A model generated the notes under the pieces. The model made no database searches, had not been told where the DNA came from, and saw nothing but the letters and a program-made list of their open reading frames with translations. Both the position numbers and the translations under genes were made by a program. From assembly GCF_000422885.1 (NCBI RefSeq), contig NZ_KE383943.1, positions 248,001 to 312,000 of the forward strand: DNA of 64,000 bases, given 5' to 3'. The DNA comes from Ottowia thiooxydans DSM 14619 (lineage in GTDB: Bacteria > Pseudomonadota > Gammaproteobacteria > Burkholderiales > Burkholderiaceae_C). How positions within the stretch are numbered: position 1 is the stretch's first letter; each line of letters opens with the position of its first letter. Positions 13,006-64,000 of the stretch are shown in pieces.

Positions 13006-14078
13006 TAAGGATTTTCGGAACGAGCGCCCGCTTCGACCGGTGGGCAGAACTTCCGCCAGATCTCGGGCCGGTCAACCTGTTCTGCATAGCTTTGAAGTTG
13101 ATCTGCGGCCAAGCCGGTTAGTTGTTTCGCACTGATGCCTTGGGCGTCGAGGTAATCGCTCAGCTCTTCTACGCATTGGGTCAGCGCCGAATAGCCGCGC
13201 ATGAGCACAAGCGAAGCCAGCTCAACTGCGTAGGCCCCAGAAAGCAAGAACCGTGCAACATCCAAGCCACTTCGGGCGCCGTTGGTTGCAAGAATCGGGA
13301 ATTGCGGGCCCAGGCGTTTTCTGGCCAAGGCCACGCAGCGTGCGGTGAGTGGCAGTGCCCACGCTCCGCCCAAGGCTGCCGAAGTGTTCAAAAGCGGCTT
13401 GTGGGTCTCAAGGTCAGGCAGGAAGCCCATGAAACGGCCCATGAGCACGACCGCGTCAGCGCCACTGTTCCTCGCGGCGTCCGCCAGCAAAGCGGGGTTC
13501 TCGCTTTGCCCCGTGAGTTTGATCCAAAGGGGTATGCTCACGGCCTCTCGCAGGCGCTTGACGATAGTTTCGATCCGGCTGGCATCGCGCTCTAGAACGA
13601 TGGCGCCTTTGGCCGCTTCGTCTCCGTGCGGCGCGCCGATGTTGACCTCCAATACCCTGAAGCCCATTTTCTGAACCACCTGGGCATAGGCTACGCACTG
13701 ATCCAGGTCGCTCAATATCAGGCTCGGTATGACGTAGCAGTCTGCGACGGCGGCTTCTCGGTCGAGGAAGATCAGCTCTTGCATCCAGTCCTCGAAGGAT
13801 TTTTGTATTAGTCCGGAGCGACAGAAGATAGAGGCATCCTGGGGAGCATTGAAATCCCATGGGACTGGTTTCCAGTCGGTTCCAACCATCCGGTAGTCGG
13901 TTTTGTCCAGCTGTGATTTAGCCGCCAAGGATTCATTGACGGACTTGGCCACCACAGCGCCAACGCCGCTGGCAATGGCGGCACGAATTCCTTCGGCTGT
14001 CATGGTGTGCTCGCCCGAGCTACAGATGACGGGGTTTTTCAATTCCAGGCCGGAAATGTGAATGCGGAGGTCTGCCAC
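13002..14078 (-). CDS. Dihydroorotate dehydrogenase-like FMN oxidoreductase
   Basis: About 358 residues from a GTG at 14078 (VADLRIHISG) with a GGA ribosome site; an ATG at 14105 would add 9 residues. A single TIM-barrel FMN domain resembles DHODH and the PreA half of dihydropyrimidine dehydrogenase: ISGLELKNPVICSSGE at the front, EVNIGAPHGDEA in the middle, the flavin-phosphate end ATNGARSGLDVARFLLSGA. No ferredoxin-type Cys cluster is attached. It is the last gene of a seven-gene minus-strand operon and more likely acts on that pathway's substrate than in pyrimidine synthesis. Its TAG stop lies at the junction with the MITE-like element. Confidence 0.82.
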   Translation of the reverse strand: MADLRIHISGLELKNPVICSSGEHTMTAEGIRAAIASGVGAVVAKSVNESLAAKSQLDKTDYRMVGTDWKPVPWDFNAPQDASIFCRSGLIQKSFEDWMQELIFLDREAAVADCYVIPSLILSDLDQCVAYAQVVQKMGFRVLEVNIGAPHGDEAAKGAIVLERDASRIETIVKRLREAVSIPLWIKLTGQSENPALLADAARNSGADAVVLMGRFMGFLPDLETHKPLLNTSAALGGAWALPLTARCVALARKRLGPQFPILATNGARSGLDVARFLLSGAYAVELASLVLMRGYSALTQCVEELSDYLDAQGISAKQLTGLAADQLQSYAEQVDRPEIWRKFCPPVEAGARSENPY

Positions 14079-14198
14079 GGTGATGTTTCCTTGCTTTGAA
14101 CACACTCTGAGAACGGCGATGTGGGCGCTGAACTATGCATCGCCGCCACAAGTCGCCACGATGCTCCCGTAGGGCATCGTGATATCTGCACCGATCTC

Positions 14199-15287
14199 TT
14201 AGTCCAGCTTCACACCAGCGTCTTTGATGCGCTGCTGGGAAACCACTCGATCGCGCTCCAGGAATTTTGCGAATTCCTCAGGCGTTTCTCCGAGCACGTC
14301 ATAACCATTGGGCTGCACGTACTTTGCGACATAGGCTTTGTCGTTGCTGATCTGTTTGATCGCTTTACTGAGGGTATCGATGACCGCCCTTGGCGTGCCC
14401 TTGGGTACGGAGACACCCATGTAAAAGCCTGCGTTCAGATCCGGATAACCAAGCTCTTTGAAGGTCGGAACATCCGGCAAGGCAGCGATCCTGCTTTGGC
14501 CGGAGATGGCCAAAACTTTGAGCTTCCCACTGCTCACATAAGGCGTGGCTGCAGTCACCCCCGCAAACATGGCATCAATGTTTCCTGCCAGCAGATCCTG
14601 CAATGCTGGGCCAATCCCTTTGTAAGGGATGTTCTTGACGTCAAATCCGCCCGCCTTTTTCAGCGCTTCAAATGAGAGGTGGGTCGTGCTGCCTGGGCTT
14701 GAAGATCCGTAGTTGTGCTTGCTGCTATCTTTTTTCATAAGAGCTATGAACTCTTTCAGATTGGAGACAGGAAGCCCTCCTTTGACAATCAACGCCATGT
14801 TGACGTCTACGATGCGAGAGACCGGAATCAGGTCGCGATAGGGGTCGTAGGGCAGCTTCGAATACAGAAAGGGGTTGAGCGATAACGACGCATCTGTGGC
14901 AAGGAGTGCGGTATAGCCATCTGGCTGAGCTTTGGAGACTGCATCTGCTCCAATGATTTCGTTGGCGCCGCCTTTGTTGTCGATGATCACCGGTTGTCCG
15001 AGCGTGGCGCCAAGGCGCTCGCCGAACGCCCGGGCCAGTGCATCAATAGGCCCGCCTGGTGGGTAAGGCACCACGATTTTGATAGGGCGCACTGGATACG
15101 ACTGCGCATGGAGTGCCGGCGACATGCCCCCTGCTGCCAACGCAATGGCCACACCCAGTGTGCGAACAACGGCGCGCCGCCGGGGCGCCGCCGAGGCACT
15201 GCTGAGAGAGCTTGTGCTGTCATGTTTGGCTGAAACTTGAGAATCAGCTTCAGAGTTCGTTGGCAGAAAGTGGCCAGATGTTTTCAT
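14199..15287 (-). CDS. Bug/TctC family tripartite tricarboxylate transporter substrate-binding protein
   Basis: 362 residues with a long N-terminus containing RRR-A-V-V, a Tat-like twin arginine, then a hydrophobic stretch ending ALHAQS near residue 62. The mature protein shows the Bug signature IKIVVPYPPGGPIDALAR and the second-lobe segments PDGYTALLAT and NYGSSSPGSTTHLSFE. It is a periplasmic carboxylate-type solute receptor. It lies 23 nt after the IclR regulator and 120 nt before the FMN enzyme. It resembles the other receptor gene at the head of this operon closely, so the operon carries two. Confidence 0.93.
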   Translation of the reverse strand: MKTSGHFLPTNSEADSQVSAKHDSTSSLSSASAAPRRRAVVRTLGVAIALAAGGMSPALHAQSYPVRPIKIVVPYPPGGPIDALARAFGERLGATLGQPVIIDNKGGANEIIGADAVSKAQPDGYTALLATDASLSLNPFLYSKLPYDPYRDLIPVSRIVDVNMALIVKGGLPVSNLKEFIALMKKDSSKHNYGSSSPGSTTHLSFEALKKAGGFDVKNIPYKGIGPALQDLLAGNIDAMFAGVTAATPYVSSGKLKVLAISGQSRIAALPDVPTFKELGYPDLNAGFYMGVSVPKGTPRAVIDTLSKAIKQISNDKAYVAKYVQPNGYDVLGETPEEFAKFLERDRVVSQQRIKDAGVKLD

Positions 15288-53297: not shown

Positions 53298-54518
53298 ATG
53301 ACGCTTCTTTTCGACTCTCCGTTGGTGAATGGCGCTCTGGACGTGCTGGCTAACGGCGTACTTGATTTTTCCTGGTGGCAAGTGCTGCTGGTTGGGCTGC
53401 TGTTCACGCACATCACCATTGCCAGCGTGACCATCTATTTGCACAGGCATTCTGCGCACCGCTCACTGGATCTGCATCCTGCAGTCCAACATTTCTTCCG
53501 CTTCTGGCTGTGGATGACCACAGGCATGACCACCAAGGCGTGGACAGCGATTCACCGCAAGCACCACGCAAAGTGCGAGCAGGAGGAGGATCCCCACAGT
53601 CCGCAGATTTACGGCCTGAAGAAAGTCATGTGGGAAGGTGCGGAACTCTACCGGGCTGAGTCCAAGAACCAAGATACCCTGAACCGGTATGGTCATGGGA
53701 CGCCAGACGATTGGCTCGAACGCAATGTCTACCTCAAGCACTCGGTGGTGGGCATTAGCCTGATGATGATCATTAACGTGACACTCTTCGGTGCTCTGGG
53801 CGCTGCGGTGTGGGCTATGCAGATGGCATGGATTCCGTTCTGGGCCGCTGGTGTGGTCAACGGCATCGGTCACTTTTGGGGTTATCGCAACTTCGAGGCG
53901 CAAGACGCCAGCACCAATTTGACCCCCTGGGGCATCATCATCGGTGGTGAAGAGTTGCATAACAATCACCATACCTATCCCACTTCGGCCAAGTTTTCGG
54001 TCAAGCCTTATGAGTTTGATGTGGGCTGGCTCTATATCACCTTGCTCTCCAGTGTAGGTTTGGCTAAAGCCAAGAAAACCGCACCTCGCCTGGCTTACGG
54101 TGAAGTGCGTCCTGTGGCTGATGAGAAAACGCTGGAAGCCGTTATTGCACATCGCTACGAAGTGATGGCAGGGTACGCTCGCCAGATGCGCGATCAGCTT
54201 GCCAAAGAAGTGGCCGCACTGAAAGCCGGTGCCGTGGATGCCCAAATCGTTAAGGCTGCCACGCGCTGGCTGCACCGCGACGCAGAAAAAGTGCCTGCAG
54301 CTGCTGCAGAGAAGCTCACACAAGCTCGTGCCGCCTGGCCGGTGCTGGACAAAATGGTCACCATGCGCGAGGAACTGCGCCAGATCTGGTTGAACACTGG
54401 TCGCAATCGCGAGCAGCTCACGGGTGATCTGCAAGCTTGGTGCAAGCGCGCTGAGGAAAGCGGTATTGCGGAGTTGCGTGAGTTCTCCATGAAGCTGCGA
54501 GCAGTTCGCGTGGCCTGA
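53298..54518 (+). CDS. Acyl-lipid/acyl-CoA fatty acid desaturase
   Basis: 406 residues. The three His boxes of the membrane di-iron desaturases are clear: HRHSAHR near 50, HRKHHAKCE near 86 and EELHNNHH near 221, with four hydrophobic segments around them. It introduces a cis double bond (probably delta-9) into a membrane fatty acid. The last 130 residues are a charged helical extension (about 275-406) beyond the usual desaturase. A strong terminator follows. No clear ribosome site is seen before ATG 53298; the 248-bp leader has an AT-rich inverted repeat (GTTTAT/ATAAAC at about 53145-53165). Confidence 0.93.
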   Translation: MTLLFDSPLVNGALDVLANGVLDFSWWQVLLVGLLFTHITIASVTIYLHRHSAHRSLDLHPAVQHFFRFWLWMTTGMTTKAWTAIHRKHHAKCEQEEDPHSPQIYGLKKVMWEGAELYRAESKNQDTLNRYGHGTPDDWLERNVYLKHSVVGISLMMIINVTLFGALGAAVWAMQMAWIPFWAAGVVNGIGHFWGYRNFEAQDASTNLTPWGIIIGGEELHNNHHTYPTSAKFSVKPYEFDVGWLYITLLSSVGLAKAKKTAPRLAYGEVRPVADEKTLEAVIAHRYEVMAGYARQMRDQLAKEVAALKAGAVDAQIVKAATRWLHRDAEKVPAAAAEKLTQARAAWPVLDKMVTMREELRQIWLNTGRNREQLTGDLQAWCKRAEESGIAELREFSMKLRAVRVA

Positions 54519-54579: not shown

Positions 54580-54606
54580 CCGGCATTGGCATGCCAGAAT
54601 CTCAGG

Positions 54607-55737
54607 ATGAATAGCTTTGACATTGTCATCATCGGCGCAGGTATGGCGGGGGCTTCGCTTGCGTGGCGATTGGCGGGACGGGGATCGTCCGTGCTCCTGC
54701 TTGAGCGCGAAGCGCAGCCGGGCTATCACAGCACGGGTCGGTCTGCGGCTTTGTTCATGGAGAGTTATGGCCCGCCTCAAGTGCGCGCATTGACACGCGC
54801 CAGCAGAAGCTTTTTTCTCCACCCCCCGCTGGGGTTTACCGATGCGCAGCTGATGCACCCTCGTGGGGCGATGCATGTGGCCATGCATGGTCAGGAAGCC
54901 GCGCTGGCGGCGCTGCATGATGAGCTGATTGGTGCTTGCCCCGATCTTCAAACGCTAGATGCTGCGCAAATCCTGGAACGTGTTCCGGTACTGCGCCCGG
55001 ATCTTGTGGCCAGCGCTTTGTACGACCCTCACGCCCAGGACATGGACGTAGATGCCATTCATCAAGGGTTTTTGCGCGGTGCTCGGGCAGGGGGAGTGAT
55101 CTTGCAGACCGGCAGGGCTCCAGTGCGAGCTGTGTACGAGAGAGGGCTCTGGTCCATACAGTTTGAAACTGGAGAGCCAGTTCAAGCGGCTCGCGTGGTC
55201 AACGCCGCTGGCGCCTGGGCCGATGAGGTAGCGAGCTTGTTTGGCGCCGCCCCCATCAATATAGAACCTCGCCGGCGCAGTGCTTTCACCTTCAGTCCAC
55301 CAGAAGGTGTCAATGCGTCTACCTGGCCTGCGGTGATCAGTGTGAGTGATGGTTGGTATCTCAAGCCCGATGCCGGACAGATACTGGGGTCTCCAGGCAA
55401 TGCTGACCCAGTAGCGCCACATGACGTGCAGCCTGAGGAGCTGGACATTGCAATAGGCATCTATAGCATTGAGGAGGCGACCTCACTCACTATTCGCCGG
55501 CCCGCCAGCACTTGGGCCGGGCTGCGCAGTTTCGTAGCTGATGGCGAGATGGTGATTGGCTTCGATGACGTTTGTCCTGGATTTTTCTGGCTAGCCGCGC
55601 AGGGCGGGTACGGCATTCAGAGCGCTGCGGGTGCGAGCCAGTTGGCTGCGGCGCTGCTTGAGGAACGTGAACTGCCTCGGGAGCTGGTGGAGCAGGGTGT
55701 CGATCCTGCTGCGGTATCGGTCTTGCGCATGCGCTAG
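54607..55737 (+). CDS. FAD-dependent oxidoreductase (DAO / D-arginine dehydrogenase-like)
   Basis: 376 residues from ATG 54607. FAD-binding DIVIIGAGMAGASLAWRL near 4-21, then RSAALFMESYGPPQVRAL, middle VNAAGAWADEVASL near 200, and C-terminal GGYGIQSAAGASQLAA. Resembles DadA/DauA type amine and amino-acid dehydrogenases. It oxidises an amino acid or amine to the imine with FAD. The last 230 bases occur a second time, diverged and with a stop codon, at 61674-61906. This is the intact copy. Confidence 0.92.
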   Translation: MNSFDIVIIGAGMAGASLAWRLAGRGSSVLLLEREAQPGYHSTGRSAALFMESYGPPQVRALTRASRSFFLHPPLGFTDAQLMHPRGAMHVAMHGQEAALAALHDELIGACPDLQTLDAAQILERVPVLRPDLVASALYDPHAQDMDVDAIHQGFLRGARAGGVILQTGRAPVRAVYERGLWSIQFETGEPVQAARVVNAAGAWADEVASLFGAAPINIEPRRRSAFTFSPPEGVNASTWPAVISVSDGWYLKPDAGQILGSPGNADPVAPHDVQPEELDIAIGIYSIEEATSLTIRRPASTWAGLRSFVADGEMVIGFDDVCPGFFWLAAQGGYGIQSAAGASQLAAALLEERELPRELVEQGVDPAAVSVLRMR

Positions 55738-55867
55738 AGATGATCAGAGACCGGCCAGCGCGCGCAACCCATTCAGGTCCAAAAGATCCAATATACGCCC
55801 CGAACCGCTGATGAGTTGACGCTCACGCAAGTGGCGCAGCACCCGAGAAAGTGTTTCAGGGGCAATT
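55506..55867. repeat. Left copy of a diverged long direct repeat
   Basis: Covers the last 230 bases of the FAD oxidoreductase gene and then about 125 bases matching the 3' end of crp. The same order and orientation recurs at 61674-62127. I count about 28 differences in the first 230 bases. The two copies bracket the 1806-residue protein gene. The right copy has an extra 89-bp palindromic insert between the two parts. Confidence 0.88.
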
Positions 55868-55995
55868 TCCGGCGTTAGCCAGTGGGTCGAGTTCTAGCAC
55901 TGCGCAACTGGCTTGGAGCCACGAAGGCCCCTCCACCATACCCATGCGATGAGTCGGTCATCGCCCTCCACCATGCCGAGTGCAACTCGTCCGGC
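55743..55995 (-). pseudogene. Crp/Fnr regulator remnant
   Basis: Minus-strand fragment matching the intact gene at 62003-62632. 55743-55867 matches its 3' end (62003-62127), then an internal deletion of about 270 bases, then 55868-55990 matches the middle and N-terminal part (about 62399-62521). Several indels (for example a GGCAATTTCC change) break the frame. Derived from a diverged copy, not from the adjacent intact gene directly. No function expected. Confidence 0.82.
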
Positions 55996-56149
55996 ATATC
56001 AAATTAAGGAGTGTTCAGACCAGTTGCTGGAGCCGCATCAAGGGGCTCGCCCAGATCCCTATACCAAGTTTCGGCCTATCCCGCAATGCGCCGATTGGGG
56101 GTTGCGTGTGTTAACGAAGTCTCCAAGAATGTGTTCAAAAATACATTTA

Positions 56150-56184
56150 TTGACTAAGAGGCGTCTTCGCAAAACGATGACCAT
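56150..56184 (+). promoter_or_regulatory. Possible promoter of the giant-protein gene
   Basis: TTGACT at 56150-56155 is a good -35 box, but 17 bases later the -10 position reads AACGAT, a poor match. It lies in an AT-richer leader (56105-56165) between the crp remnant and the start codon at 56225. Low confidence. Confidence 0.25.
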
Positions 56185-56224
56185 GTTTTGGAGCGGCTCG
56201 CGCTCGTTGCCCGTGGGGACTCTT

Positions 56225-59200
56225 ATGCTTATGCGACTTCTGAACCGTGCCAAACCCTTCAGCACGCTGCTGGCAGGTGCGCTGATCTGGATGGCATCAT
56301 GCACGTGGGCATGGGCTGCAGTGGTCAGCTACGACATCTTGCTGGACACCGATGCCAATTCGGCCACTGGGTGTACGGTCTCCACGCCGAAAGGAAATTT
56401 TCAGGGCGTCGAGCAGATCTTCTCCACGCAGGTCATCACCAGCACCACGGGTGCCAGCGTCACTGGAGTGACGCGTAGCGCCTGCGCCAGCGGTACATTC
56501 AGTGCGCCCCAGACCGTTGATGTTGGCGGCTGGCCAGTAGGCTTCGGTCTTGGTGTCGATGGCGTGGCTATCATCGAGACTTATGCTCCCCTGGCCTTGC
56601 TAGGCACCAGCGGCAACGTGCGCGCCGGCGTCGTTTCCCGCAGTGGGGATGATAGCGACGCCATCCTGGGGGTGGAACTCACGCTGGGCTCCGGCATCGG
56701 TACCGTTCCCATCCCCACCATCACACCACCCGTGCTGCTGCTGCTGGCCGCCGCCATCGCTTGGCTGGCTGGGCGCATGGTACGCCGGCGCGGGCTGGCT
56801 TCGGTGCTCATGCTGGGGTTCGTGCTCGCGGGGTCGGCCGGTGTCGTCTGGGCCGCCACCATCGCGCTCGATGGTTTGGCTGGAGATTGGGCTGGCCAGC
56901 AACCGCGAGCGACCGCGCCCAAGGGCGATGCACCTGTCAACGTAGACCTCACTGCTTTGTGGTTCACAAAAGATGGCACGCGGGCGTACTTCCGCATTGA
57001 TGCCGATGTAGTGGTTGCAGCACCCGCCCTGACACTGGGTCCCTTGCCCGACCGCAGCATTCCGGCGGGCCAGCCTTGGTCACTGCGGCTGGCGGCTGAT
57101 GCAACCGACCCCACCGCCAGCCTGAACTACCAGATCACACAAGGCCCGGCCGGCGCGCAATTGGCGCCCGAGCCCATGCTGCGCTGGACGCCCACCCCGG
57201 GCCAGGCTGGCACGGTGCACTCCTTCACCGTGGCCGCCACGGATGGCACGCGCACCGCGCAGGCCACCTTCAACGTCACGGTCACCGCGCCGGTCAACCA
57301 ACCCCCCGCGATCGACGATCAGGTCGATGAAGAAATCCCCGTGGGCAGTCAGTTCCAGCGTGCCATCAGCGCCAGCGACCCGGAGGGCGCCGCTGTCACT
57401 CTCACGCTGCAGAGCGGCCCGCCCGGTGCCAGCTTGAGCGGCACCACCCTGAGCTGGGGCGCCAATAGCCAACCCGATGAAACCGCCTTCGTCCTGCGGG
57501 CCAGCGATCCGCAAGGCGCCAGCAGCACGGCCCGCTTCTTCGTGCGCACACTACCGTCCGCGCCGCCCCTGGCGTTGAATGACGAATACACCGTGCGTCT
57601 GGGTCAGACGTTCACCCTCCCCGCCACAGGCGTGTTGAGCAATGATGTTGCCCCCTCTGGCGGCACGCTCACAGCAGGCAGAATCAGCAATCCCGACAAG
57701 GGCACCCTCAACGCCTTCAACGCCGACGGCAGCTTCACTTATCAGGCGCCTGCTGCGCTGCCGCCTGCACCGCCTTTCAAGATGGCGCTGGATTGGAGCG
57801 ATCCGACGACTGGCGGCCTCCATGCCGACAGTGTTGTGGTCGCTGACCTGAATGGTGACGGCGTGCCTGATATCGTTCGCGCCGATTCGGCGTTCCAAAG
57901 ACAAACGATCGCCTACAACGGGGCGAACGGATCAAAGATGTGGGAAACCGGGTGGCCTTTCTCGGGAATTGCTTCGGATTGCCAACTCTTCTTGGGTGGT
58001 AAACCGGTTCCTGTTGTCGCAGACATCGATGACAACGGCACACCGGAGGTGATGTTCCCAGTGGATTGCGGGCGTGATCACCCCACCATTAATTCAGGGG
58101 TGTTCAAGCGGGTGATCGCGCTGAACGGTGTGGATGGTACAGTGCGCTGGCTTTCTGATCAGATTGGCGATGGCACGCCTCCAGGCGATAGCGCGCTGCT
58201 CAACTACACCACATTGACGGTGAGTCGGCTAGAAGCCGGTGGCCCGGTGCTGGTGATGGGCGCGCACACCGAGTTGGATCCAAGCCCCAATACGGCCTGC
58301 CAATATATCGGCGGTGAAGTCGCACACAAGCGTTGCCGCCGCGTATTCGGGCTGGACGGGCGAGACGGCAGTCTTGTGCGCAACTGGTATGCCCCCGCCC
58401 CCGACTACACCGCCAGTTGGCCCGGGTATCGCACAACTAGCAACGGTATGTTCGAACCACCGTTCGTGTCTGATATTGATGGCGACGGGCACATCGAAAT
58501 CCTGTACGAAGGCACCCTGTGGCGCGAAAACGGCACCTTCAACGGCACACTGGTGCGCCATTTTGACGGCACCATCACCGGCACGCCACAGCGCCGCGGC
58601 AGCCAGCAGTTCGGCGTGGGTGATCTTGACGGCGACGGCCGCGCCGAAATCGTCATTGCTGATCAAAACAACAGCCTGGTGCGGGCGCAACGTCCAGATG
58701 GCAGCCTGCTGTGGGAGACGGAGGTGAGCCACTGCTCATTCAGCTGCGTCGTGAGCATCGCCGACGTCGATGGAGATGGCGCTGCCGATGTGCTACTGGC
58801 GGGCGGAGCTCGGATAACCTTGCTCGATGGACTCGGACGAGTGCGGTGGGCCAGGAGCTTTATCGCCAACTATCCCCTTCAATGGTCCTATGGTTGCGCC
58901 AACCGTCCGGCCGTCTATGACCTGGATGGCGACGGTGTGCCAGAGGTGGTCGTCCGGGTCAGCAAGTACATCCGCGCGCTGCGGGGGGACACGGGCGAAC
59001 TACTCGACGAATTGGAGATTCCTACTCCGAGTGGTAGTCTGAACCAAACCGCCTGTGGCTATTCAACGTCGGACGTCCGGGTTGTCGATCAGCGCGGTGA
59101 TGGCGCGGCGCGGCTGGTATTTCCAAGTGCGTACGGCTTTGGCTTCGCGGTGCTCAAGAGCGCCAACGATCCATGGATGCCAGTACGCAAGCGCTATGGC

Positions 59201-61645
59201 TCCTGGGTCGATCAGCCCGGTGCGGTGACCGATAGTGGCCACGTGAATGTGGCTGGCCCCGCCCCCGGCATGGGTGGCCGCCCCAACGTGTTCGGCCAGC
59301 AGGTTCAGCAGGCCACGCGGGCCGATCTGCGCAACCGCGAACGCACATCGTTCACATACGAGGCCCGTGCCGGCACCCTGGCATCTGCGCCCGCCACCGT
59401 GCGCCTGAACCTGCTGCCGTCCAACGGTAAGCCACGCATCACCTCCGTGCCGCCAATGGCCTGGCAGGCTGGGGCACCCGCCAATTTCAGCTACAACCTG
59501 GCGGCAGTCGATCCCGATGCGGGCGACACCCTGACCTGGAGCATCGTGAGCTATGAGCCCATCAGTGCTGATAATCGTTATCAGCCCGTCATCAACCCCA
59601 GCACCGGCGCGATGACCCAAAACTATGCATCGAGTGAGCAGTACCTGTACACCGTGCGCGTCACCGACAGCCAAGGGGCTTACGCGGATCAGATGTTCAG
59701 CGTCAACTTCAGTGCTGCCGCGCGGGTGGCGGTCCCGAACGTGGTCGGCCAGAGCCGGAATGCCGCCTTCGCTTCACTGGCCGCCGTAAGGTTGTTGCCC
59801 GGTACCCTGAGCGAGCAGTTCAGCGACAACGTTCCGGTCGGAACAGTGATGATCCAAACGCCCGCCAGCGGCCAGGCTTCCGTCGGCGCCGGCATCCACC
59901 TGACCTTCTCCAAAGGCCCCGAGCCGCGCCCGGTGCCCAACGTAGTCGGCTCCCGGTTGGAGGCTGCAGGTGTCCTGCTGCCCACTCCCTTCTCGCTGGG
60001 CACTGTGAACCATGTCTATAGCAGCACCGTGGAGCAGGGGCGCATCCTCTCGCAACTTCCCGCGGCTGGTGAGCAAGCCGTACCCGGCGCGGTGGCGGTC
60101 ACTGTCTCTGGCGGCACCGGCCTTTCGCTGCACCTGAACCGTGACTACAGCAGTGCCGATCTGCCGATTACCTTCACCGCGAAGGCGACCGCCCCCGATG
60201 GCAGCGCTCAATCGCTTCCATCGCCGATCAACTACAGCGTGACCGAGCTGATCACCCTGAGCGCTGGCCCGTTGCCGACCGTCAGCGGCAACCAGATCAT
60301 CTTCGGCAACTCTACGCGCGGCAGTTTCCGCTTGACCGCCAGCGGCGGCGGGCGCACCACCAGTATCAACTTTGCCGTCGGCCCGCCAGCGGCGGGCGGC
60401 GAAGCATCGCCGATGGTCGAATACGTGCAGCTGATGCAAACCCTGCAAGGTGTGTACGACCTGATGGAGCAGGCTAAGGGGCAGGACGTGCCCACCGCCC
60501 GGGCGCTGCTCACGCAGGCGGTCAACCTGTGGCGCAGCTTCGACCGCGACGCGCTGCGGCTGACTTCGCCGATGGTGATTGAGGGAGGGTTCCTGCCCAC
60601 GTTGGCTGACTTGACTGCCGCTGGCGTGGTGCCGGGGCCGCAGGATGCGCTCAATAAGCAAATGCTGCGCGAGAGCATCGCACCGCTGAAGGCGCTCACA
60701 GCCGGTTTGCGTGAAAGGAACACGCCGCTGACGCAGATCGACCTACTCGGTGCGGCCTTCGATACCAAGGCGCGGCGGGTCAGCGGCCTGGTGCCCAGCG
60801 AGTACGGCACCGTGCAGGCGGCGCCCGAATACACGCTGATCGTCTCTCACGCCATTCCTGACATGATGGATGCGTTGATGAACGACTTTGGCGAAGGGCT
60901 GGGTATCGGCCGTGAAACACGCCCGTTCCCGCTACTGAAGTCGTCGCTGGTGGAATCGTTGACCACTCTGGCGATTGACCAGGCGCTCTCCAAAGCCATG
61001 CCGCTGCTCGACAGCGCCAAGAAGTACGCCAGGGACATCCTCGGCCAAGCCGCTTATGGCGCGGCTGCAGTGGCGCTGGCCAACCATGCACGGCAGTTTC
61101 TGGGCGCACAGGAATTGATCGCGGTCGGCTCGGGTGCGTCGATGTCTATGCACGTGTTCGAATCGCCCTGGGCGTTCATCGAGGCCAGGGGGTTGGAGTG
61201 GGAATACACCGATCTCAATACGGTGGTGCTGCTCGGCCCGGATCTGTTGTCTGCCGCTTCCGACGCGGTCGACAAGATCAAGGCGGCCTGGAAAGCCACG
61301 CCGGGCAGCGCCTATACGAGTTCGAGCCAGATCAAGAAAGACATGAAGGAGTTGAAGGGCGCATTGCAGGGCGTGGTCGATGCCGCTGGTGCCGCTGCGG
61401 AAGTGGCTCAGCGCAGCTTCCAGGGCACTGACGAGGAGGCCGAAGCCTGCCTGTTCGACAGCCACCCGGATTGCACGCAACTGCTGTTCTCAGATGGCTT
61501 TGATTCGGTCTACCACTACACCGGCCCGACGGGAGGTACCGGCCTGGGCGGCCTGCCGGTGCCCATTACCTTCATCGTGCGCAACAACGTGAGCGGGCAA
61601 CTCTACATCAGCACGCCGGTGTTCCTGCCCACGCCCAAGCCTTGA
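56225..61645 (+). CDS. Giant exported mosaic protein (Ig-like, FG-GAP/VCBS-type, PASTA repeats)
   Basis: 1806 residues from ATG 56225, with GGGGA 6-10 nt before it; frames from 55913 run through the crp remnant and are rejected. Signal peptide 1-31 (ends WAWA-A). At about 162-189 an IPT motif, a hydrophobic run and RRR look like an IPTL-CTERM sorting tail placed internally; a second hydrophobic stretch follows (191-211). Then two Ig/cadherin-like domains (267-355, 357-442), a GVLSND-type cadherin-like domain (450-514) and six calcium-loop repeats of the D-x-D-x-D-G kind at 541, 600, 750, 800, 847 and 899. Another Ig-like domain is at 1068-1163 and two PASTA domains (VPNVVG) at 1168-1297. The last 400 residues are mostly helical, unrecognised, and end with an LFSDGFD motif. 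Likely a surface or secreted adhesion or scaffold protein; function unknown. Confidence 0.85.
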   Translation: MLMRLLNRAKPFSTLLAGALIWMASCTWAWAAVVSYDILLDTDANSATGCTVSTPKGNFQGVEQIFSTQVITSTTGASVTGVTRSACASGTFSAPQTVDVGGWPVGFGLGVDGVAIIETYAPLALLGTSGNVRAGVVSRSGDDSDAILGVELTLGSGIGTVPIPTITPPVLLLLAAAIAWLAGRMVRRRGLASVLMLGFVLAGSAGVVWAATIALDGLAGDWAGQQPRATAPKGDAPVNVDLTALWFTKDGTRAYFRIDADVVVAAPALTLGPLPDRSIPAGQPWSLRLAADATDPTASLNYQITQGPAGAQLAPEPMLRWTPTPGQAGTVHSFTVAATDGTRTAQATFNVTVTAPVNQPPAIDDQVDEEIPVGSQFQRAISASDPEGAAVTLTLQSGPPGASLSGTTLSWGANSQPDETAFVLRASDPQGASSTARFFVRTLPSAPPLALNDEYTVRLGQTFTLPATGVLSNDVAPSGGTLTAGRISNPDKGTLNAFNADGSFTYQAPAALPPAPPFKMALDWSDPTTGGLHADSVVVADLNGDGVPDIVRADSAFQRQTIAYNGANGSKMWETGWPFSGIASDCQLFLGGKPVPVVADIDDNGTPEVMFPVDCGRDHPTINSGVFKRVIALNGVDGTVRWLSDQIGDGTPPGDSALLNYTTLTVSRLEAGGPVLVMGAHTELDPSPNTACQYIGGEVAHKRCRRVFGLDGRDGSLVRNWYAPAPDYTASWPGYRTTSNGMFEPPFVSDIDGDGHIEILYEGTLWRENGTFNGTLVRHFDGTITGTPQRRGSQQFGVGDLDGDGRAEIVIADQNNSLVRAQRPDGSLLWETEVSHCSFSCVVSIADVDGDGAADVLLAGGARITLLDGLGRVRWARSFIANYPLQWSYGCANRPAVYDLDGDGVPEVVVRVSKYIRALRGDTGELLDELEIPTPSGSLNQTACGYSTSDVRVVDQRGDGAARLVFPSAYGFGFAVLKSANDPWMPVRKRYGSWVDQPGAVTDSGHVNVAGPAPGMGGRPNVFGQQVQQATRADLRNRERTSFTYEARAGTLASAPATVRLNLLPSNGKPRITSVPPMAWQAGAPANFSYNLAAVDPDAGDTLTWSIVSYEPISADNRYQPVINPSTGAMTQNYASSEQYLYTVRVTDSQGAYADQMFSVNFSAAARVAVPNVVGQSRNAAFASLAAVRLLPGTLSEQFSDNVPVGTVMIQTPASGQASVGAGIHLTFSKGPEPRPVPNVVGSRLEAAGVLLPTPFSLGTVNHVYSSTVEQGRILSQLPAAGEQAVPGAVAVTVSGGTGLSLHLNRDYSSADLPITFTAKATAPDGSAQSLPSPINYSVTELITLSAGPLPTVSGNQIIFGNSTRGSFRLTASGGGRTTSINFAVGPPAAGGEASPMVEYVQLMQTLQGVYDLMEQAKGQDVPTARALLTQAVNLWRSFDRDALRLTSPMVIEGGFLPTLADLTAAGVVPGPQDALNKQMLRESIAPLKALTAGLRERNTPLTQIDLLGAAFDTKARRVSGLVPSEYGTVQAAPEYTLIVSHAIPDMMDALMNDFGEGLGIGRETRPFPLLKSSLVESLTTLAIDQALSKAMPLLDSAKKYARDILGQAAYGAAAVALANHARQFLGAQELIAVGSGASMSMHVFESPWAFIEARGLEWEYTDLNTVVLLGPDLLSAASDAVDKIKAAWKATPGSAYTSSSQIKKDMKELKGALQGVVDAAGAAAEVAQRSFQGTDEEAEACLFDSHPDCTQLLFSDGFDSVYHYTGPTGGTGLGGLPVPITFIVRNNVSGQLYISTPVFLPTPKP

Positions 61646-61673
61646 TGAATTCAATGTAACCTGCACCCAATTG

Positions 61674-61906
61674 GACAGCACCTGGGCCGGGCTTCGCAGT
61701 TCCGTGCCTGATGGTGAGATCGTCATTGGTTTCGACGACGTCTGCCCAGGGTTTTTCTGACTGGCCGCGCAGGGCGGGTACGGCATTCAAAGCGCTGCGG
61801 GTGCGAGTCAGTTGGCTGCGGCGCTGCTTGAGGAGCGTGAACTCCCGCCGGAACTGGTGGAGCAGGGTGTCGATCCAGCCGCCGTCTCGGTGTTGCGCAT
61901 GCGCTA
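61674..61906 (+). pseudogene. FAD oxidoreductase 3' remnant
   Basis: 77 codons in the frame of the gene at 54607, about 88 percent identical by eye to its last 230 bases. A TGA replaces the TGG codon in the GFFW motif (61757-61759); otherwise the frame is intact to the TAG. It has no start and no promoter. It is a leftover of a second, diverged copy of the gene carried with the inserted segment. Confidence 0.88.
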
Positions 61907-61994
61907 GGAGGCTGTCGGACTTGGAGCGCCAATAGCGAAAATGGACCGCTGCGGTCCATTTGCTGCCGGCGATTTCCAAGTCCGATATTCTCCT
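61906..61994. repeat. 89-bp palindromic element (REP-like)
   Basis: AGGAG, four bases, TCGGACTTGGA at the left pairs with the same sequence read inward from the right end (AGGAGAATATCGGACTTGGA). An inner perfect palindrome AATGGACCGC-tg-CGGTCCATT lies at about 61940-61960. It has no coding capacity and is absent from the left repeat copy, so it was gained or lost after the copies separated. It may also end transcripts from crp. Confidence 0.75.
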
Positions 61995-62002
61995 GGAGAG
62001 GA

Positions 62003-62632
62003 TCAGGGACCAGCCAGCGCGCGCAACCCATTCAGGTCTAAAAGATCCAGTACACGCCCCGATCCGCTGATGAGGTGGCGCTCGCGCAGATGGCGCAATA
62101 CGCGCGAAAGCGTTTCAGGGGCAATTCCAAGTTGCGCCGCAATAGTGCACTTGCGCTGGCGTAGCAGCACGGCGAGCTTGTCGGGAGCGCCCGCAGTGGG
62201 TTCCGCATGGCGCAACAGCCATTCGGCGCAACGAGCTTCGGCGTCTTTGGCCAGGCGGCTGATGACGAGTTCAGCTTGCTGCCGATGCGCGAGTGACACA
62301 TCACGCAGCACGGTCAACGCAGCGGGGGGAAGCTCTGCCAGACCGGCTTCGAAAGATTTCAGTGGCACGCGTTGCACTTGTACGCTGGTTTCGGCCACGG
62401 CGTCAGCCATGGGCGCAAGACCGAGTACGGCGCAACTGGCATTGAGCCACGATGGCCCCTCCACCATGCCCATTCGATGCGCCAAGGCATCTCCATCCAC
62501 CATGCCCAGCGCAACGCGACCGGTAGCAAGATAGAGCACTTCCGACGTGGCGTCCGCACGTCGCATCAGCTGGGTGCCCGCCGGTAGTGTGCAGGTTTCA
62601 CCCGGCCAGTCAAAAGACCTTAGGTTCAGCAT
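62003..62632 (-). CDS. Crp/Fnr family transcriptional regulator
   Basis: 209 residues. N-terminal cyclic-nucleotide-type beta barrel (LMRRADATSEVLYLATGRVA near 22-41), dimer helix near 95-125, and the HTH with recognition helix IAPETLSRVLRHLRERHLI near 168-186. The E-x-x-S-R reading residues match those of FNR/Dnr for TTGAT half sites. There is no N-terminal Cys cluster, so it is not an oxygen-sensing FNR of the E. coli type. It is adjacent to a NarL/NarX-like pair, suggesting control of anaerobic or nitrogen-oxide respiration (inference). An exact FNR box lies 35 bp upstream. Confidence 0.9.
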   Translation of the reverse strand: MLNLRSFDWPGETCTLPAGTQLMRRADATSEVLYLATGRVALGMVDGDALAHRMGMVEGPSWLNASCAVLGLAPMADAVAETSVQVQRVPLKSFEAGLAELPPAALTVLRDVSLAHRQQAELVISRLAKDAEARCAEWLLRHAEPTAGAPDKLAVLLRQRKCTIAAQLGIAPETLSRVLRHLRERHLISGSGRVLDLLDLNGLRALAGP

Positions 62633-62666
62633 GCCCCGACTTTGACGCGCGAAGCGGTTGGCGGCA

Positions 62667-62680
62667 TTGATTCATATCAA
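62667..62680. promoter_or_regulatory. FNR/Dnr-type box
   Basis: TTGAT-TCAT-ATCAA, an exact match to the FNR/Dnr consensus TTGAT-N4-ATCAA. It is centred about 41 bp upstream of the crp/fnr start codon and 84 bp after the response-regulator stop. The nearby regulator has the matching E-x-x-S-R recognition helix, so autoregulation or control by another FNR protein is plausible. Confidence 0.8.
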
Positions 62681-62757
62681 CTCGAACAATGATGTTTGCC
62701 TTGATCCGCTGGCAAGGCTTCAAATGTGAGCGTTGAACCGACTCTTTGAACGCGTTT

Positions 62758-63402
62758 TCAGGCCAGCCCCATGCCTCGTGCCCGCAGGGCTGCTTCCGCG
62801 CGGCTGCTGATATTGAGCTTGCGGTAGATGTTCTTGACGTGATCGCCCACTGTATGCCGGGATATGCCCAGCATTTCCCCGATGTCCGCGATACGCACGC
62901 CCTGGGCCAACAATCCCAAAACCTCGCGCTCCCTGGCACTGAGTTCCTCCTCTCCGGCAACAGCAGGCTGTGCAAGAGCGTGGGGCAGCTGAAAGTGGCG
63001 CAGCAGTCGCCGCGCGATGGCCGGCGATAGTGGTGGTTGGCCCTGCACAATGCCCCTCAACTGTGAAGCCAACCAGGGGATCGGGTGGTCCTTGAGCAGA
63101 TATCCTTGCGCCCCGGCCTGCAGTGCCTGAAAAAGGTTCTCGTCATCGTCGTGAATGGTGGAGACCACGATGGCGCATGCGGGTTGGCGTTGGGCCAGCT
63201 GGAGAATGACGTCGCGGCCATGCCCATCGCCTAGAGACAAATCCACCAGTGCCAGCTCGAATGGCTGTGTCTCGATCAAAGCCAAGGCCTCGCGCACGCT
63301 GCGAGCCGTGGCGCAACGGACACCTTCAAAGGCCGTCTGAGTGGCGGCTTCGACGATGGCGAGTGCATCAGGTAAATCGTCTACGAGTAGTGCCTGCCTC
63401 AT
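62758..63402 (-). CDS. NarL/FixJ family response regulator
   Basis: 214 residues. Receiver domain: acidic pocket LVDDLPD near 6-12, phospho-acceptor Asp in LALVDLSLGDGHG near 54, switch Thr/Ser in IVVSTIHDDDE and Lys in GYLLKDHP near 103. LuxR-type HTH: LSAREREVLGLLAQGVRIAD then GISRHTVGDHVKNIYRKL near 150-198. It is activated by the kinase encoded upstream; the two overlap by 4 nt. Possibly the nitrate-type NarL, but the input domain is outside the window. Confidence 0.93.
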   Translation of the reverse strand: MRQALLVDDLPDALAIVEAATQTAFEGVRCATARSVREALALIETQPFELALVDLSLGDGHGRDVILQLAQRQPACAIVVSTIHDDDENLFQALQAGAQGYLLKDHPIPWLASQLRGIVQGQPPLSPAIARRLLRHFQLPHALAQPAVAGEEELSAREREVLGLLAQGVRIADIGEMLGISRHTVGDHVKNIYRKLNISSRAEAALRARGMGLA

Positions 63403-64000
63403 GAATGCTCCTGCGCGAGTAGCAGGGGCATCCGAACCATTAGTTCGGCCTGGCCCTGCACCGAAGTTCCAGTGTGGAGCTCACCACCATAGGCCTGCAA
63501 TCGATGGCGCATGCCCTGTAGCCCACGGCCTTCAACCCAGCGGCTTGGTTCACCTACTGCGCCGTCGTTACGCAGGGTCAGGCTCAACTCGTTCGATATC
63601 AGGGCGATGGCAATTTCAATATGGTTCGGTCGCGCGTGGCGCAATGCGTTGGTCAGTCCTTCGCGCAGTGCACGCTCAATCACTGCCTTCTGGCGCGAAG
63701 GCAGGGTAGGAAGGGCATGACCCAAATCTGCGCTCCAGATTAACGCTACCTGGGCTGCCTCACAGCGCGCGCCGGCCTCGGCGCGCCAATCGGCGATGGC
63801 ATCAGCCAGGGGCGTGTCCTGGGCATCCATGACGTGCAAAGCTGTACGCAGATCATGCATGGCGGCGCGTGCGAGCTCCGCCAATTCTGGGGACCCGGCG
63901 CGATGGATCAGCATGAGCAGGCGCGCGCCTACGTCGTCGTGCATGTCTCGCGCAATGCGGCGTCGTTCCTCGCTGGCCCCGCGCTCATAAGCGTCCCTGC
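63399..64000 (-). CDS. Sensor histidine kinase, C-terminal part (cut by window edge)
   Basis: About 200 residues visible. The HisKA_3 phospho-acceptor His is in RRRIARDMHDDVGARLL near the window edge, and the HATPase domain has the N box REGLTNALRHARPNHIEI and G boxes DGAVGEPSRWVEGRGLQGMR. The frame continues past 64000 above the internal Met at 63944, so the sensor part is missing. NarX/UhpB-type kinase, partner of the response regulator with which it overlaps by 4 nt. Confidence 0.9.
   Translation of the reverse strand, partial: RDAYERGASEERRRIARDMHDDVGARLLMLIHRAGSPELAELARAAMHDLRTALHVMDAQDTPLADAIADWRAEAGARCEAAQVALIWSADLGHALPTLPSRQKAVIERALREGLTNALRHARPNHIEIAIALISNELSLTLRNDGAVGEPSRWVEGRGLQGMRHRLQAYGGELHTGTSVQGQAELMVRMPLLLAQEHS

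Follow-up and report, generated by a model that had tools for sequence, protein, structure and literature searches.

A giant-protein gene between diverged copies of an oxidoreductase-crp junction in Ottowia thiooxydans: a probable addition of foreign DNA through homology

The 64-kb stretch of Ottowia thiooxydans DNA analysed here (referred to below as the window; the genome is G000) contains a 1806-codon gene lying between broken pieces of two genes, both of which are also present in intact form next to it. The question raised by this locus is how the giant gene came to be there. The order of the pieces is: intact FAD-oxidoreductase gene (ox), broken crp copy, giant gene, broken ox 3' end, intact crp. 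Intact ox (54604..55737, plus strand; 377 codons) encodes a FAD-dependent oxidoreductase of the DAO family, an assignment based on PF01266 (E 3e-49) and on genus relatives; its 3' end (55506..55737, plus strand) is defined by repeat alignment as repeat copy A. The crp remnant (55738..55994, minus strand) starts no more than 15 bases past the end of intact ox, on the opposite strand. It retains codons ~38-78 and 170-209 with the stop codon, lacks codons 1 to ~37, and carries a large internal deletion and a one-base offset (compared with intact crp, 2 bases stand in place of 271, and 7 bases in place of 8). A 230-base spacer (55995..56224) leads to the giant gene (56225..61645, plus strand), which is recognised by its open frame and domain matches. 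Directly behind its stop codon is the right-hand joint (61646..61675, ~28-30 bp), which is abrupt and without visible homology, followed by the ox remnant, or repeat copy B (61676..61907, plus strand). The ox remnant comprises codons 294-377 with the stop codon, and contains one internal in-frame TGA and one F-to-S change. A palindromic repeat element, MITE- or REPIN-like (61908..61998), separates it from intact crp (62003..62632, minus strand), a crp/fnr-type regulator gene of 209 codons (PF13545, E 4e-13) that is 86% identical in G004, the nearest same-genus relative. The same anatomy had been proposed in a first-pass annotation of the sequence, and it is borne out by the alignment of the repeats and by the frame beginning at 56225, which is open over all 1806 codons claimed for it.

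Four direct repeats connect the two sides of the giant gene: 55506-55737 with 61676-61907 (232 nt, 28 mismatches, where about 28 in 230 bases had been counted initially), 55734-55867 with 61993-62126 (134 nt, 87%), 55870-55951 with 62398-62479 (82 nt, 80%), and 55959-55994 with 62488-62523 (36 nt, 83%). The first three are the sole direct repeats of at least 60 nt in the whole window, and no inverted repeats of at least 60 nt were found in it. A 601-base query (55400-56000), run against the entire genome, had no match apart from itself and three segments of the right-hand copy. Because the copies are 12% apart, an assembly error is an unlikely source of them.

To find the state of the locus in other genomes, the ox protein was searched in 60 relatives, which yielded 19 same-genus loci with ox identities of 53-78% (at least 58% in 17 of them). 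Flanks of 1.5 kb were considered for most loci, and larger ones for G003, G004, G007, G008, G010, G013, and G019. An empty site, with ox and crp directly adjacent, had been named at the outset as the expected counterpart of an insertion, and such sites exist: at 9 of the 19 loci the two genes are convergent and 10-222 bp apart, with a gap of 15 bp in G004. Three further loci (G003, G007, and G019) have ~1.4-1.5 kb between ox and crp, filled by an aminotransferase-like gene. No crp was present in the flank examined at seven loci; at three of these (G018, G015, and G009) the contig ends within ~500 bp of ox. The giant gene was found at none of the 19 ox loci, and the contrary case of a relative keeping it between intact ox and crp was thus not encountered. 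Since ox and crp are adjacent at 9 of 19 loci while the giant gene occurs at none, the junction is, by this comparison, old, and the giant gene was added there. In one relative, G013, a second ox gene is present ~9 kb upstream of the other (L060:3099-4226 and 13147-14277), and ox can therefore be duplicated in the genus.

The giant gene itself stands apart from its surroundings. Its GC3 is 0.74, whereas 47 other ORFs of the window average 0.65 (sd 0.04) and only one of them is as high; the comparison of codon use with the flanks, suggested in the first-pass annotation, thus places it above 46 of the 47. A full-length relative is absent from the other 28 genus genomes searched. Matches to the protein occur in 6 of the 29 genus genomes, its own included, and in the other five they are limited to stretches at 26-40% identity. 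When the C-terminal part was searched in 200 family genomes, 9 genomes of the Comamonas badia genus, and 399 order genomes, the nearest relative was that of C. badia (73-75% identical in the C-terminal part, ~54% over the whole protein); another, in a genome of a different family (G456), is 40% identical. Full-length relatives thus appear to be rare. Neither ox nor crp lies within 10 kb of the C. badia gene, and broken flanking genes were seen neither there nor in G456, so the giant gene is not always accompanied by the scar.

The differences between the intact and broken copies were analysed by codon position, and were polarised using G004 as a single outgroup. Of the 28 mismatches between the ox copies, 25 fall at position 3 (P 1e-9). 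Nine changes are assigned to the remnant branch, eight of them at position 3 (P 1e-3 versus one third), and 13 to the intact branch, 11 of them at position 3; position 3 also accounts for all six differences left unpolarised. The TGG-to-TGA stop is among the remnant's position-3 changes, and hence seven, not eight, of the nine are silent, compared with 27% expected randomly (P 2e-3). For crp, the intact branch carries 19 changes (17 at position 3) and the remnant branch 15 (eight at position 3, alone not significant, P 0.09), with 4 of 38 differences unpolarised. When the ox and crp remnants are pooled, 16 of 24 changes are at position 3 (P 9e-4). Changes outside position 3 number eight in the remnants and four on the intact branches at the same sites. 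Position 3 differs in 25 of 77 ox codons and, in crp, 28 times among 242 compared bases; third-position divergence is therefore alike in the two genes, which fits the expectation from one split. Because the changes in the remnant are mostly at third codon positions, the simple reading is that the broken copy was functional for the greater part of the time after it separated, and then underwent a shorter period of decay. In a tree of ox ends, copies A and B are sisters (98/97) and G004 is next (97/99); the tree is otherwise weak, with 10 of 15 inner branches poorly supported. This placement is compatible both with a donor closer than any sampled genome and with an old duplication within the lineage.

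We consider it probable that homology at the ox-crp junction allowed DNA of a diverged relative to be added there. Each of the two genes is present twice, once intact and once broken, on the two sides of the giant gene, and DNA from an unsampled sister species appears to be the best account of the codon-position pattern. The donor molecule would have brought in an ox 3' end of its own together with part of crp, the spacer, and the giant gene. It would have paired with the resident ox-crp junction and undergone a single crossover there, while its other end would have been joined without homology at 61646-61675, right after the stop codon of the giant gene. The host would have retained one working copy each of ox and crp, and the spare pieces would then have decayed. 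It is quite possible that the event was a homology-facilitated illegitimate recombination (HFIR), in which a linear fragment was used and the illegitimate joint arose within the recipient chromosome; the intact ox end would then be donor DNA, and the remnant the old resident end. In the other variant, which we regard as possible, the joint would have been made first, by circularisation of the fragment, and a Campbell crossover would have followed; given a crossover close to the gene boundary, the pieces would be in the same order but the roles of the two ox ends would be swapped. An HFIR on a linear fragment and a Campbell circle would thus yield the same order and fit the locus equally well. 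A low-mismatch stretch between the ox copies, as might mark the crossover point, gave uncorrected permutation P values of 0.03 for 80 nt, 0.10 for 60 nt, and 0.38 for 40 nt, and was set aside.

The first-pass annotation had proposed a Campbell-type integration of a circular molecule. What stands of this proposal is the foreign addition at the junction, which is favoured by the empty site, by the absence of a full-length giant gene from the other 28 genus genomes searched, and by the codon positions. The circular donor fares less well: the order of pieces agrees with it, but a linear fragment with one crossover and one illegitimate joint leaves an identical order. A true circle, either a plasmid or an excised circle with a captured ox-crp stretch, has the same possible standing as the circular variant to which it belongs, the arrangement being the outcome of one crossover with a circle. 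Against it, the insert consists of one ORF with 230 and ~30 bp beside it, and no replication or mobility gene lies between the repeats. No circular donor was found in plasmid, phage, and viral-contig searches. Plasmid records match the giant protein only in Ig-type stretches, which span no more than 18% of its length (the best 15 of 24 matches), none matches the crp remnant or the spacer, and three match the ox end alone, at 67-74%. The B-type ox allele was likewise absent from the 60 relatives searched with the ox protein, the nearest being that of G004 (78%), and the search for a source of the remnants in other species, also suggested at the outset, led to no donor genome in the collections searched.

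Several histories within the host lineage, or involving mobile DNA, have to be weighed against the addition of foreign DNA. If the segment between ox codon 294 and crp codon 38 had been copied once within the genome, with the giant gene placed between the copies, the pieces would have the same order and orientation, as they do. The spare pieces would have drifted, however, and drift should spread changes over codon positions, whereas 25 of the 28 ox differences and eight of the nine changes in the ox remnant are at third positions; duplication of a fragment followed by decay was rejected on these grounds, and we regard it as most improbable. The sister relation of copies A and B, which the first-pass annotation had put forward as the sign of a simple tandem duplication, was indeed obtained. 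It does not rescue the copying of a fragment, because a copy made within the genome would decay from the start, and the codon-position pattern still speaks against a simple duplication. A different duplication accommodates both the tree and the silent pattern: the whole ox-crp pair would have been duplicated in tandem long ago, both pairs would have remained functional for long, and the giant gene would then have replaced the region from the first crp to the second ox. The second ox gene of G013 is in its favour as well. Such a history requires that the pair be duplicated, that both copies of it be maintained for long, and that an insertion be accompanied by loss on either side, and no tandem ox-crp pair was present at the 19 same-genus loci (flanks mostly 1.5 kb); we consider it unlikely. 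Insertion by a transposon, an integron, or a site-specific integrase is very improbable. While an element of a repeat family adjoins the scar, it is located between the ox remnant and crp and not at an end of the insert, and the repeats themselves are parts of two host genes. The window contains no tRNA gene. Between the repeats, the open frames consist of the giant gene and shorter, overlapping ones, without transposase or integrase, in agreement with the initial report that neither was visible, and the giant gene was not seen within a matching pair of terminal repeats in C. badia or G456. We conclude that the observation is real and beyond chance, and that a foreign addition through homology is well supported by the sequence comparisons.

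Events of this type are already known; this one stands out by its unusually readable scar and its possible recurrence. To our knowledge, additive gene gain without a mobile element has been seen mostly in laboratory transformation and at a few special loci. The present case is a natural one: neither target gene was lost, and the spare copies, judged by codon positions, come from a long-separated allele. The codon-position pattern provides a simple test of foreign addition versus local duplication, and a tally of such scars would gauge how frequent the events are. PMC5361080 proposes HFIR for Vibrio cholerae T6SS modules, where displaced old 3' parts are left behind, and PMC3240628 reports HFIR in E. 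coli conjugation at low frequency, as well as linear DNA that circularises by ligation and integrates by single crossing-over in E. coli. The locus described here resembles HFIR in having one homologous anchor (the ox-crp repeats), one putatively illegitimate joint, and a foreign gene beside a conserved one. It differs in its anchor, which consists of two convergent genes of housekeeping type, and in its spare 3' end, which bears a stop codon and is decaying. Campbell integration likewise leaves direct repeats of the target flanking the insert, but here no circular donor is known and the insert is without replication or mobility genes. In Streptococcus pneumoniae, transformation yields merodiploid duplications that are also bordered by repeats, according to passages in PMC3784515; those duplicate 100-900 kb of host DNA located between existing repeats, whereas here two gene pieces of a diverged allele are involved.

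A second site of similar anatomy is present on the same contig (C3 447708-450774; L116:15708-18774). An intact zinc-type dehydrogenase gene is followed there by a spacer of ~315 bp, a glycosyltransferase-61 gene, and, 6 bases past the stop codon of the latter, a broken dehydrogenase 3' end. The dehydrogenase copies have 43 mismatches in 235 aligned bases, 21 of them at position 3 (P 0.03, counted without polarisation), and decay is more advanced. The survey for further scars took in 1.47 million bases of the genome, which is a fifth of it and includes the window, together with 0.8 million bases from G013 and G023. Eleven repeat pairs, nine from G000 and two from G013, were compared at the protein level. 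Two weaker candidates were noted in G000, at C4 66711-66908 and C2 228063-228302, which are broken pieces of a nearby metallo-hydrolase-like and kinase-like gene, respectively, in the same orientation; these are possible further scars. The two G013 pairs gave no clear scar. Since the survey covers a fifth of G000 and the pairs compared come from G000 and G013, no excess of scars is claimed. We put forward, tentatively and as a rather doubtful proposition, that homology-anchored addition from sister species is a recurrent source of single large surface-related genes in this lineage. In each such event, equally tentatively, a working host gene would be kept and a decaying spare 3' end would be left closely behind the stop codon of the new gene (by ~28 bp at the locus studied here, by 6 bp at the second site). 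If this were true, the genome would be a readable record of such events, with their relative ages.

The product of the giant gene has an export-like N-terminus and, ~190 residues in, an IPTL-like motif followed by a hydrophobic stretch and basic residues. Beyond these are a second export-like hydrophobic stretch, Ig-type domains, FG-GAP repeats, and two PASTA domains. The C-terminal 415 residues have no Pfam match up to E 1 and no solved relative (best E 0.87), and their predicted fold, with a mean pLDDT of 40.6, is unusable. The FG-GAP part is 42% identical to that of the C. badia protein and the C-terminal part 75%, and this difference suggests a variable binding part joined to a conserved end. 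The genome encodes the exosortase XrtH (TIGR04177), which scored above cut-off in 20 of 26 genomes searched, including all three carriers of the giant gene (G000, C. badia, and G456). Given the IPTL-like motif and the presence of an XrtH gene, the host XrtH probably assists in the export and processing of the giant protein. It resembles the midcut-by-XrtH family (NF033207) in the mid-protein position of the IPTL-like motif, hydrophobic stretch, and basic residues, and in the presence of XrtH in the genome; unlike members of the family, it scores 20.7 bits, under the cut-off of 45, and the C. badia and G456 relatives do not appear among the NF033207 matches at E values up to 0.1. No paper on XrtH, or on IPTL-CTERM with exosortase, was found in the literature searched. 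A short relative (298 codons, 51%) of the N-terminal part of the giant protein is encoded on the contig that carries XrtH (C21:68104-68586; L041).

Apart from 29 nt that match an Lrp/AsnC-type gene at 93%, the spacer (55995-56224) is unique in the genome. Within the spacer, 56019-56049 encodes TSCWSRIKGL, which is similar to the DNA-binding helix of Lrp/AsnC-type regulators (E 9e-4 in 400 bp), and this scrap is perhaps a third broken gene. The palindromic element between the ox remnant and intact crp is ~85-90 bp long and gave 80 matching rows in the genome, corresponding to ~40 distinct places as counted by eye; some copies have a longer form of ~166 bp, consisting of two parts. No Rfam match was obtained in 55000-64000, and a promoter scan returned one site, near chance. 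Upstream of ox, the fatty-acid desaturase gene at 53298-54515 is 93% identical in G004, and the C-terminal part of its product matches the Pfam family DDE_Tnp_ISL3 (30.8 bits, cut-off 23).
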